From assembly GCF_031877795.1 (NCBI RefSeq), contig NC_133957.1, forward strand, positions 7,414,351 through 7,478,350: 64,000 nucleotides of DNA, given 5' to 3'. This DNA comes from Strix aluco. Taxonomy: Eukaryota > Chordata > Aves > Strigiformes > Strigidae. Of this stretch, positions 21,842 to 63,737 are shown piece by piece. Both the position numbers and the translations under genes were made by a program. The stretch's first letter is position 1. Each line of letters starts with the position of its first letter. The notes under the pieces were generated by a model. It had not been told where the DNA came from, ran no database searches, and saw nothing but the letters and a program-made list of their open reading frames with translations.

Positions 21842-24800
21842 TCACCACTCGCAGATGTACACCCTCTCCTCGGTGGTTTTGCGCGTTGTGGGGGGGCGGC
21901 GAGGGGGTGGGGGGTTCTTCGGTGACGGTGAATTCGTCCACGCGGAAGATCCAGCGCCCCGGGACCCCCACGTTGCTTTTGCGGCCGATGTTGAGCACCG
22001 CCGGCTGTGCGCGAGCCCGGGATGTTTGTAGTAGTGCACGTCGTCCCCGCTGTTGAACCCGGCCTGGGGACAGGGCGGGTGACAGGGCGGGTGATGGCAG
22101 GAGAGGGGGGGCAGAGCCACCCAGCTCCGAGGAACTGTGTTTCTGCCCTCAATCCCCTTAATTCCACCCAAAATAACTCTAAATCTCCCCAAATACCCCC
22201 AATTTGGCCCTTAACTCTGCCCAAATCCCCGAAATTCTGAGCCAAATCCCTTTTAATTCTGACCAATCTCCAAAAATTCTGACCCAAATAACCTAAATTC
22301 TGCCCCAAATAAATTAAATTCTGCCCCAAGTAACCTTAATTCTGCCTCAAATCCCCTTATTATGCCCAAATCCCTTTAAATCCGCTCCAAATCCCCTTAA
22401 ATTCACTCCAAATCCCCTTAATTCTGACCCAAATCCCCTAATTCCACCCCAAATCCCCAAAATTTCACCCCAGATTTCCTTAATTTGGCCCAAATCATCT
22501 TAATTTCACCCCGAATACCCTTAATTCTGACCCCAGTCCCCTTAATTTTACCTAAATCCCTTTAACTCTGCCCCAAATGCTCTGAATTCCACCCGAAACC
22601 CCCCTAATTCCACCCCAAATCCCCTTAATTTGACCCCAAGCCCCTTAATTCACTCTAATTCCTTTAATTTTGCCCTAAATCCCCTTAATTCCACCCCAAA
22701 TCTCCTTAATTCAACCCCAACCCCCCTAATTCACCCTAAATCCCCTTCATTTAACCCAAATCCGCTTAATTCCAACCCAAATCCTGTTAATTTGCCCCAA
22801 ATGCCCTTAATTCCACCCCAACCCCCCCAATTCCCCCCCAAATCCCCTTAATTTGGCCCAAACCCCTTAATTCCACCCCAAATCCCCTTACATTGGCCCA
22901 AATCCCCTTAATTTCACCCTAATACCTTTAATTTGGCCCAAACCCCCTTAATCCCACCCCAAATCCCCTTATTCGCCCCAAATCCCCTTAATTTGGCCCA
23001 AACCCCCTTAACTCCACCCCAACCCCCCAATCCCACCCCAGATCCCCTTCACTTGACCCAAACCCCCTTAATCCCACCCCAAATCCCCTTAATTTGGCCC
23101 AAACTCCCTAATTCCACCCCAAACCCCCTTAATCCTGCCCTAAATCCCCTTAATCCCACCCCAAATCCCCCTAATTTGGCCCAAACCCCCTTAATCCCAC
23201 CCCCCCTAATCCCACCCCAAATCCCCTTCACTTGACCCAAACCCCCTTAATCCCACCCCAAATCCCCAGAATTCCCCCCCATCCCCCCTAAACTCCTCCC
23301 ATCCAGGCAGGTGACCCCAGTCCCATGGTGGGGGGCCCTCCCCTCCCCCCCCCCGCCGTGTGCCCCTCCCCCACCTGGGCCGGGATGCCCCCCAGGCCAG
23401 TGTGGGGGTCCCCCTTGTTGGCGATGCCCGTGGTCCATTGGATGCCACCGTAGTTGAACATGACGAAGGAGGTGGCCCCGTCGGTAGCCAACACGGCCTG
23501 GAAGGTGTTCACCTGCGGCGGGGGGAGGGGACAACGAGAACGAGGAATGTCACCATCGCGTCACCGCGTCACCACGACCTCCATTACAGTGGCCCCCGCC
23601 TCCACGTTTCCACCCCCGTGTCCCCAAGTCCTGGTGGCCACCAACTTGGGAGCTCAAGATGGTTGACCACCACCCCCCCCACCTCATCCCCCCACCTTTT
23701 TGGAGGCGGCCCCGAAGAAGGAGACTCGATGCCATGTGGCCACGAAGGCCCAAGTGGGCCGAGGAGCTGGGTCGGAGGGGGCTACGGCGGGGGCCAGCTC
23801 CCGGGCCAAGCGGGCCAGCAGCTCCGGGTCCTGGGTCTGCCGGTAGAAGACTTCTCCTCCCAGTCTGATGTCCACGTCGGCCCAGTATGGGGCCACGAAG
23901 GGGCGGTGGCCGGACAATGGGAAGGGCTCGGGGGTGAATTCGGGGACCCCCATCCGAAACGACACCACCCCGTTGTTGTTGACCTGGAGAAGACAACCAT
24001 AAGCCCACGGTGACCCACTCAGGGTGTGTGGTCATCACCTGGGGTGGCCCCCACCTATGGTGGCACCACTCGTGGTGGGTCCCAATCATGGTGGGTCCTA
24101 ATCACGGTGATACCCAACCCATGGTGGCCTCCAACCCCTTGTGGTCCCCAACCCATGGTGTCACCCACCCATGGTGGCCCCAAACCCATGGTGGCCCCAA
24201 CTATGGTGGTCCCCAACCCATGGTGGCCCAAACTATGGTGGACCCCAACCCCTGGTGGTCCCCAATCCATGGTAGTCCCCAACCCATGGTGGCCCAAATT
24301 ATGCTGGCCCCCAACCCATGGTGACCCCCAACCATGGTGGCACCAACTATGGCAGTCCCCAAACCATGGTGGCCCCAATTATGGTGGTCCCCAACCCCTG
24401 GTCGTCCCCAATCCATGGTGACCCCCAATCCATGGTGACCCCCAACCCCTGCTGGTCCCCAACCCATGGTGGCCCCCAACCCCTTGTGGTCCCCAACCCC
24501 TGGTGGTCCCCAATCCATGGTGGCCCCAATTATGATGGTCTCCAACCATGGTGACGCCCAACCCATGGTAGCCCCCAACCAATGGTGGCCCCCACCCATG
24601 GTCTCACCCAACCATGATGTTTCCAACCCAGTGTGGCCGCACCCCAGAGCACCCCCAGCACCCTCCTGCCCCCCCATGCCCTGGGGCCCAGCACCCACGT
24701 AGAGGAAGCGGTGGGGTTGTCCGTAGAAGGAGAAGGTCTCCCAGAGGAAGATCTTGGGGCTCATCCCATCATCTTCACGGGGGGTGGTCACGTCACCGGC

Positions 24801-25352
24801 CTCCAGCCCGTAGGGGTAGAGCAGCCCATCTTGGGGGGGGAGAGGGGGGGCACCCATCAGGGGCACCCATGGTGGCCCAGAAGTGGGACCTTCCATTATG
24901 GGCATGGGACCTCCCAAAAGGGGGTCTGGGGACCTCCCAGTATGGGTCTGGGGCTCCCAACGTCACCCTGGGACCTCCCAGTATGGGGCTGGGCCGCTCT
25001 CTGGGTGGAGAGGGGACAGGGTGACACGCATGGGTGCCCCCCCATGTCCCCACAGTGTCCCCACTTACCCAGAGGTCCCATGGGTGCCCCCCAATGTCCT
25101 CTGGGGTCCCTCCTCACCCAGGGGTCCCATGGGTGCCCCCCACATCCCCATGGTGTCCCCACTCACTCAGGGGTCCCATGGGTGCCCGCCATGTCCCCAG
25201 TGTCCCCACTTACCCGGGGGTCCCATGGGTGCTCCCCATGTCCCCAGGGGTCCCCAGTCATCGATGGGGCTGAGGAGGAGGAGGAGGAGGACGGGGACAA
25301 CCTTCAGCTGCCTGGGCCTGGGGAAAGGGGGAGGGGGGGGGGCTTCATCCAT
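21842..25352 (-). CDS. NIDO-domain secreted protein, alpha-tectorin-like (left copy; last exon frame-broken)
   Basis: NIDO (nidogen-like) domain protein without VWD repeats. Exons: 25214 to about 25340 (hydrophobic [11 protein letters not shown] signal core), 24699-24829 (GLLYPYG), 23696-23983 (starts VNNNGVVSF; contains [12 protein letters not shown] and [12 protein letters not shown]), 23375-23512 ([20 protein letters not shown]) and 21842-22063 ([12 protein letters not shown] ... [10 protein letters not shown] ... CEW, stop). Exon lengths 131 and 138 equal those of the right NIDO gene, and junction phases agree. The last exon needs three one-base corrections to read through: an extra A after GACGTGCACTACTAC, an extra G in GCCGGCGG, and one in a seven-C run near 21890. 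The start is unsure: an in-frame ATG (MDEAPPPPP) precedes the signal core, but an acceptor-like CCCCAG lies between. Either assembly errors or a recent pseudogene. Confidence 0.75.
22140..23285. repeat. Minisatellite CCCCAAATCCCCTTAATT in the left NIDO gene
   Basis: About 20-22 bp units of CCAAATCCCCTTAATT + TGGCCCAAA or CCACCCCAA filling the last intron (22064-23374). No exon inside. Confidence 0.85.
24030..24620. repeat. Minisatellite CCCATGGTGGCCCCAA in the left NIDO gene
   Basis: Array of CCCAACCCATGGTGGCCCC and AACTATGGTGG units of 16-20 bp between exons 24699-24829 and 23696-23983. Confidence 0.85.
25030..25210. repeat. Minisatellite around the signal exon of the left NIDO gene
   Basis: Blocks of GGGGTCCCATGGGTGCCCCC with CATGTCCCCA inserts. 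A second patch of the same family reappears at 26700-26840, 1.5 kb away. Confidence 0.7.
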
Positions 25353-62600: not shown

Positions 62601-63737
62601 ACAATATTTTTGGGGGGAAAACACCAGGTTCACTCACAGTAGGAGGTTGTCCCATGCCATCTTCTGAGGACAACGGTGATGAAGGTTGGTGGTTGGCCCA
62701 CAATATTTTGGGGGAAAAACACCAAATTTGGTCATGGTAGAAGGTTGTCCCATGCCATCTTCTGAGGACAATGGTGATGAAGGTTGGCGGTTGGTCCACA
62801 AAATTTTTTGGGGAAAACATCAAATTTTACTCACAGTAGAAGATTGTCCCGTGCCACCTTCTGAGGACAACGGTGATGAAGGTTGGTCGTTGGCCCACAA
62901 AATTTTTGGAGGAAAACACCAAATTTGCTTGTGGTAGAAGGTTGTCCATGCCATCTTCTGAGGACAACGGTGATGAAGGTTGGTGGTTGGCCCACAATAT
63001 TTTTGGGGAAAAAACACCAAATTTGGTCATGGTAGGAGGTTGTCCCATGCCATCTTCTGAGGACAACGGTGATGAAGGTTGGAGGTTGGCCCACAATATT
63101 TTTGGGGGGAAAACACCAAATTTGCTTACGGTAGAAGGTTGTCCCGTGCCACCTTCTGAGGGCAACGGTGACGAAAACTGGAGATTGGCCCGTAACATTT
63201 TGGGGAGGAAAATGCCAGGTTTGTCGAAAGTAGGTTGACCCACAACATTTTTTGGTGAGGATAACGCTGAAAGTAGGATGTTGGCCCATAATATTTTTGG
63301 GGGACACCATCACAGAATTGGAGGTTGGCCCATAATGTTTTTGGGGATGCCACCACCCCCAGGAGGAGGTTGTCCCCTGCTACTAAGCCCTTGGGTGGGG
63401 TTAATCCTCCAAATCATCCATTTTGGCCCCATTTTTAGGCCGGCTTCAACAGCGGAGATGACAAGAACTTCTACAACATCCCCGGCTCCCAGACTGAAGC
63501 CATCATCAACATCACCCAGACCTCCAACGTCAACGTGCCGGGGCGCTGGGTCTTCCAGGTGGATGAGTTCAAGGTGACGGGGGTCCCCACCGAGGCGCCC
63601 AAGGTCGCTGACAACAACTGCTGGTTGTAAGTTGGAATTTTGGGGTTGGAAACCTACAAAAAAAAAAAAGGGAAAATTGAGAATTGGTTGGAAAACTGGT
63701 TCTTCCTCTTGAGTTCTTGGTTTCTTCCCGCAGGTAA
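59657..63737 (+). CDS. NIDO-domain secreted protein, alpha-tectorin-like (right copy, complete, 270 aa)
   Basis: Exons: 59657-59693 (signal peptide [12 protein letters not shown]), 59811-59843, 60222-60352 ([12 protein letters not shown] ... [15 protein letters not shown]), 60813-61094 (starts [47 protein letters not shown]), 62171-62308 ([20 protein letters not shown]) and 63439-63626 ([17 protein letters not shown] ... [10 protein letters not shown] ... NNCWL), with the stop completed in 63734-63737. All phases agree and there is no internal stop. The NIDO domain spans roughly residues 60-255. Function is not established; in alpha-tectorin and nidogen, NIDO lies in extracellular-matrix proteins. 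The start is the first ATG before the hydrophobic core. It is divergent from the FCGBP-like gene and paralogous to the NIDO gene at 21.8-25.4 kb. Confidence 0.88.
61265..61775. repeat. Minisatellite TTGGCCTTCGTGACC in the right NIDO gene
   Basis: Units of CATTCTTGGCCTTCGTGACC, TTATTGGTTTCATGAC and GATGGCCTTTGTGGCC. A block of about 120 bp is repeated near 61370, 61500 and 61630. Confidence 0.8.
62400..63370. repeat. About 100-120 bp minisatellite in the right NIDO gene
   Basis: Units contain GGTTGTCCCATGCCATCTTC, TGAGGACAACGGTGATGAAG and TTGGCCCACAATATTTTTGG with GGGGAAAACACCAAATTTG. Nearly identical copies run from 62640 to 63180. Confidence 0.85.

Follow-up and report, generated by a model that had tools for sequence, protein, structure and literature searches.

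The stretch analysed here, called the window throughout, covers 64,000 nucleotides (nt) of the Strix aluco genome (C27:7414351-7478350, C27 being our label for the contig, in an assembly of 1.41 Gb and 202 contigs). It holds most of a cluster in which genes for a NIDO domain, termed NIDO-A and NIDO-B, are interleaved with genes of the FCGBP type, termed FCGBP1 and FCGBP2. The order along C27 is NIDO-B and FCGBP1, both on the minus strand, then NIDO-A and FCGBP2, both on the plus strand, FCGBP2 lying beyond the window. The two FCGBP genes thus point away from each other with NIDO-A in between, and NIDO-B sits 3' of FCGBP1. About 48% of the window was scored as tandem repeat by Tandem Repeats Finder (TRF), and we therefore restricted the gene calls to frames with domain matches. 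A preliminary description of this DNA had placed NIDO exons at both ends of the cluster, in one gene downstream of an FCGBP-like gene on the same strand and in another divergent from it upstream, and domain scans confirm this layout as well as the VWD-C8-TIL gene on the minus strand between them. The IgGFc_binding domain of FCGBP1 and the second gene, FCGBP2, were absent from that account.

NIDO-A extends from 59657 to 63630 on the plus strand, in five exons bounded by AG acceptors and GT donors, and the spliced model matches the Pfam NIDO profile at 2.5e-65 over positions 2-186 of 186. The predicted product has 259 residues and one sequon for N-glycosylation; its only cysteine, at 257 and third from the end, sits where the NIDO of alpha-tectorin (TECTA) joins its next cysteine-rich domain. 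The putative signal exon is the better of the 2 candidates listed for 55.0-60.19 kb, and it is short for a signal peptide. The TAA stop falls inside GTAAGT, a possible donor (score 6.0), and the protein would run on if it were spliced there; an end at 63630 is likely, not proven. This is what looks like a stand-alone NIDO gene of the TECTA/SNED1 type. Within the window, no polypeptide was found to combine NIDO and VWD, as NIDO-A is divergent from FCGBP1 and stops at 63630, though an unseen bridging exon is possible. A phmmer search of PDB for relatives of NIDO-A with solved structures returned 5 distinct sequences, the best at chance level (E of 0.49). Shortly after NIDO-A, a minisatellite (63713-64000, plus strand, and onward) is open in more than one frame and was taken as non-coding.

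NIDO-B runs on the minus strand from 24829 to about 21845, and three of its exons are intact (131, 288 and 138 nt). The NIDO homology of its last exon can be read only in three successive frames, the middle segment (NIPGSRTAG) being in the second, and from this we consider the copy to be broken, either as a pseudogene or as the product of assembly indels. An AATAAA is found past this exon, at about 21702. Between NIDO-B and FCGBP1, a search for a signal exon found no candidate under strict settings and, under looser ones, weak candidates only (for instance 28715-28685). The proposal that both NIDO genes are secreted is thus plausible for NIDO-A, which has a good signal-exon candidate, and left in doubt for NIDO-B, given its weak candidates and its last exon in three frames. 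We also considered whether NIDO-B could provide the last exons of FCGBP1 by direct splicing and rejected it, the last FCGBP1 donor being in phase 0 and the first NIDO-B acceptor in phase 1.

Table 1. Mapped features of the NIDO and FCGBP genes and of the left flank, in window positions.
Feature	Position	Strand	Remarks
NIDO-A exon 1, candidate signal exon	59657-59693	+	ends in phase 1 (TTAG, then GTAGGT)
NIDO-A exon 2	60222-60352	+	131 nt, leads into the NIDO domain
NIDO-A exon 3	60813-61094	+	282 nt; NIDO match 4.8e-26
NIDO-A exon 4	62171-62308	+	138 nt
NIDO-A exon 5	63439-63630	+	end of NIDO; terminus ...NNCWL, then stop
FCGBP1 candidate signal exon	55515-55560	-	phase 1; in-frame ATG at 55566; one good phase-compatible candidate
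FCGBP1 IgGFc_binding exon	51694-52916	-	domain about 51745-52608; PF17517 2e-71; genome scan 1.5e-68
FCGBP1 D1: VWD, C8	50477-51809	-	GDPH present
FCGBP1 TIL + D2: VWD, C8	47598-49411	-	GATH replaces GDPH
FCGBP1 TIL, TILa + D3: VWD, C8	45222-47128	-	GDRS replaces GDPH
FCGBP1 TIL, TILa (separate exons), then D4: VWD, C8	40879-44855	-	GDPH present
FCGBP1 TIL, TILa + D5: VWD, C8	38088-40186	-	GDPH present
FCGBP1 TIL, TILa + D6: VWD, C8	34040-36635	-	without GDPH
FCGBP1 TIL, TILa + D7: VWD, no C8 seen	29613-32864	-	open frame
NIDO-B exon 1	24699-24829	-	131 nt; requires a phase-1 donor ahead
NIDO-B exon 2	23696-23983	-	288 nt; NIDO match 3.0e-20
NIDO-B exon 3	23375-23512	-	138 nt
NIDO-B last exon	21845-22063	-	NIDO homology across three frames
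EPTP-domain frame	13270-13860	+	Pfam EPTP 4e-15; left of the cluster

A genome scan for NIDO gave 19 exon matches, which we grouped into eight genes. One of them, on C23, carries NIDO, four VWD units and ZP-N/ZP-C domains, and is called TECTA here because of this combination; another, at 2.14 Mb on C9, is called SNED1 because EGF modules follow its NIDO (8 pattern matches, with 3 of the 3 checked confirmed by Pfam). In a tree of six sequences, built from exons 1-3 of NIDO-A, NIDO-B, TECTA and SNED1 and from parts of exons 2-3 of NID1 and NID2, the first four stand apart from NID1 and NID2 with 100% bootstrap. This bears out the tectorin-like character that had been proposed for the NIDO domains of the cluster. 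Judged from their sequences, NIDO-A (by its whole domain) and NIDO-B (by exons 1-3) belong to a TECTA/SNED1-type NIDO subgroup. The broken exon of NIDO-B and two NIDO loci of C9 were left out of this tree. These two loci, which we take to be MUC4-like, are oriented oppositely, with about 14 kb between them (C9:19771460-19772174, plus strand, and 19785321-19786538, minus strand).

The NIDO exon boundaries are common to NIDO-A, NIDO-B, TECTA and SNED1. A 138-nt exon is found in the first three (141 nt in SNED1) and a 288-nt exon in NIDO-B and TECTA, while the 131-nt exon common to NIDO-A and NIDO-B, with a TECTA equivalent of 134 nt, is a weak sign that the two are sisters. The lengths of 131 and 138 nt had already been recorded, correctly, in both genes and had been taken to mean that they are recent paralogs. 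Our data do not support this. Over exons 1-3, NIDO-A is 55.9% identical to NIDO-B and 55.2% identical to TECTA (51.7% for NIDO-B and TECTA, 49.7% for either gene and SNED1, 58.9% for TECTA and SNED1), the 138-nt exon is also that of TECTA, and within the group of four the pair TECTA and SNED1 receives 83% bootstrap and the pair NIDO-A and NIDO-B 44%. As the values for NIDO-A and NIDO-B, NIDO-A and TECTA, and TECTA and SNED1 are nearly equal, the split between the two NIDO genes would be about as deep as that between TECTA and SNED1, if rates were similar. Alpha-tectorin, which is like NIDO-A and NIDO-B in its NIDO exon layout, has VWD units and ZP in one protein with its NIDO, whereas NIDO-A appears to stop after NIDO; SNED1, in the same subgroup and with a similar exon layout, has its NIDO ahead of EGF modules, and the predicted NIDO-A frame ends at 63630.

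FCGBP1 occupies about 55.6-29.6 kb between the two NIDO genes. By Pfam and motif matches it comprises an IgGFc_binding N-domain, seven VWD units, six C8 and six TIL, each domain half being contained in one open frame. The coordinates given for its VWD units are open-frame limits, and the lower edge of its IgGFc_binding exon is likewise an open-frame end, with no mapped donor. The final exon is either 29918-29634, followed by GTAAGT, or one closed by a stop ending at 29613. GDPH, the self-cleavage motif of VWD units, is kept in 3 of the 7 units of FCGBP1 (D1, D4 and D5) and in 2 of the 4 of FCGBP2.

The IgGFc exon of FCGBP2 lies on the plus strand about 10 kb past the right edge of the window (domain C27:7488829-7489698, 1.7e-69) and is followed by the four VWD units. 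A scan of the whole assembly for IgGFc_binding scored 3 candidates, of which 2 matched, namely FCGBP1 and FCGBP2; there was no further match. In a tree of VWD units, D4 to D7 of FCGBP1 pair in order with units 1 to 4 of FCGBP2 (SH-like support 0.70, 0.82, 0.95 and 0.95), so that three of the FCGBP1 units appear to be additional. When the exons of FCGBP1 were used as queries, 16 of the 17 matched both FCGBP2 and TECTA, and 15 of these 16 matched FCGBP2 better. The VWD scan shows three VWD genes on C27: FCGBP1, FCGBP2 (C27:7490770-7499396) and a third at C27:7528119-7533323. One open frame (C27:7518486-7528697, plus strand), 3404 codons long and containing 440 cysteines, runs into a VWD unit of this third gene; a four-cysteine pattern matches it 108 times, the units being some 27-32 residues long (for example PSCNNFHCEAGTQCKMVDGWPKCV), and the IgGFc domain of FCGBP1 found no match in the 19 kb around it. 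Elsewhere, a VWD-rich cluster at C9:17601802-17648822 shows equal-score matches about 9.1 kb apart, which suggests a recent tandem duplication, and in its vicinity the genome scans returned neither NIDO nor IgGFc matches.

To the left of the cluster, ten frames on that side of the window were scanned against Pfam, and the EPTP match was the only hit. We take this frame to be LGI4-like. In humans, 19q13 carries LGI4 as well as FCGBP, and the frame, if LGI4-like, would fit synteny with that region. The segment that borders the window on the left (C27:7404351-7414350) contains 2700 N next to that border, which may be a gap.

Most vertebrate proteins with an IgGFc domain derive from one cluster of conserved synteny (PMC11237159). 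The locus described here resembles that cluster in having an IgGFc_binding N-domain followed by VWD-C8-TIL assemblies and in its clustered paralogs. It differs in the NIDO genes, which are seen here in and beside the cluster; in its accessible form, the main text of that study contains neither 'NIDO' nor 'nidogen'. In the titles, abstract openings and passages covered from the open-licence literature we found no account of a link between NIDO and FCGBP or of NIDO genes in an FCGBP cluster, and the available parts of PMC9275260, PMC1325057, PMC7333891 and PMC10057474, which concern proteins resembling zonadhesin, FCGBP and tectorin, describe no NIDO-only gene. As far as these sources go, the FCGBP cluster is already described across vertebrates, and the new element here is the presence of NIDO genes inside it.

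Proteins of both kinds have been listed in the blood of birds. Table 1 of a chicken plasma study (PMC6205363), in lipopolysaccharide (LPS) versus saline, gives a log2 fold of -0.20 for LOC100857892, 'sushi, nidogen and EGF-like domain-containing protein 1 isoform X1', and of -0.21 and -0.23 for two IgGFc-binding-like proteins. LOC100857892 is a bird LOC gene with a nidogen-type name, found in plasma along with IgGFc-binding-like proteins, and we liken it to NIDO-A by name alone. An alpha-tectorin-like protein is among the F95-enriched plasma hits of two seabird species, in tables that also list IgGFc-binding proteins (PMC7168935). From the accessible parts of these chicken and seabird reports, blood plasma is no less likely than mucus as the site of these proteins. 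The genes may still be a co-expressed set, which was the other reading in the preliminary description.

We consider it probable that the locus is the vertebrate FCGBP cluster, with two old paralogs, a TECTA/SNED1-type NIDO-A between them and a broken NIDO-B 3' of FCGBP1, encoding proteins of extracellular assembly. Several points weigh against this. The gene models come from the genome alone, the linkage of NIDO and FCGBP is seen in one assembly, and where NIDO-A ends (at the stop or beyond a donor) is, like every signal exon, a prediction. The bootstrap of 44% gives little to the grouping of the two NIDO genes, one of the 17 FCGBP1 exon queries (40879-41823) matches TECTA better than FCGBP2, and the last VWD unit of TECTA clusters with the last FCGBP units, at a support of only 0.37. 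In the chicken plasma table, as far as it is accessible, many other proteins change similarly little, and LOC100857892 would be an orthologue of a NIDO-only gene, and not SNED1 itself, going by its LOC name only. The accessible main texts on alligator plasma (PMC7198796) and chicken serum exosomes (PMC6410298) each name an IgGFc-binding-like protein and mention neither tectorin nor nidogen.

A linkage known from genes alone, and from one assembly, would also be compatible with NIDO genes that lie beside the FCGBP genes by chance, with no functional relation; two NIDO copies at the sole IgGFc locus found, and published plasma lists that, in their accessible parts, name both kinds of protein, speak against such a neighbourhood, which we hold to be rather unlikely. 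NIDO-A could also lie inside the first intron of FCGBP2, the two sharing a promoter and a signal exon by alternative splicing. Exon 1 of NIDO-A, if joined in frame to exon 2 of FCGBP2 (GFFSVLHVAASA...), would give what is, by our own reading and no predictor, a classical-looking signal peptide; however, a candidate exon for FCGBP2 (72555-72621) has a donor score of 9.3 versus 8.5 and stands 1.5 kb from exon 2, while the shared exon would require an intron of about 14 kb, and this arrangement seems improbable. It is equally doubtful that FCGBP1, NIDO-A and FCGBP2 form a split tectorin-like complex circulating in avian blood, in which a disulfide would bind NIDO-A to the FCGBP proteins in place of a fusion to VWD units. 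Finally, the preliminary description had raised the fission of a tectorin-like ancestor, of which its trio or, in a variant of ours, the pair from NIDO-A to FCGBP2 would keep the NIDO and VWD pieces in order; although NIDO-A shares the strand of FCGBP2 and lies ahead of it, stops just beyond the cysteine where the TECTA NIDO exon enters the next domain and has a phase-1 first exon that would fit the FCGBP2 IgGFc exon (phase 1 by our reading), and although FCGBP2 and TECTA have four VWD units each and the grouping of the last TECTA unit would agree, fission is very unlikely, as a TECTA gene stands on C23, both FCGBP genes have their own IgGFc_binding domain, which intervenes between NIDO-A and the VWD units, units 1-3 of FCGBP2 pair with FCGBP1 units and not with D1-D3 of TECTA, NIDO-B lies across FCGBP1 from NIDO-A and is out of phase with FCGBP1 for direct splicing, and IgGFc-domain genes occur, according to the accessible text of PMC11237159, in every major lineage of vertebrates as well as in echinoderms, hemichordates and tunicates.

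The data favour old, separate genes over a tectorin that split recently. In an FCGBP cluster that holds such NIDO genes, these would probably have originated by duplication of a TECTA/SNED1-like NIDO region with its introns kept. NIDO-A would be a small secreted protein of one domain; the products of FCGBP1 and FCGBP2, likewise secreted, would be long and rich in disulfides and may cleave themselves at the remaining GDPH motifs. The FCGBP chains and NIDO-A may then act in extracellular assembly, in blood plasma, at epithelia or both. The NIDO domain would serve as a protein-binding module, and NIDO-A as a small partner, possibly through its lone cysteine. Located within the FCGBP cluster, NIDO-A is thus a candidate partner for the FCGBP proteins.

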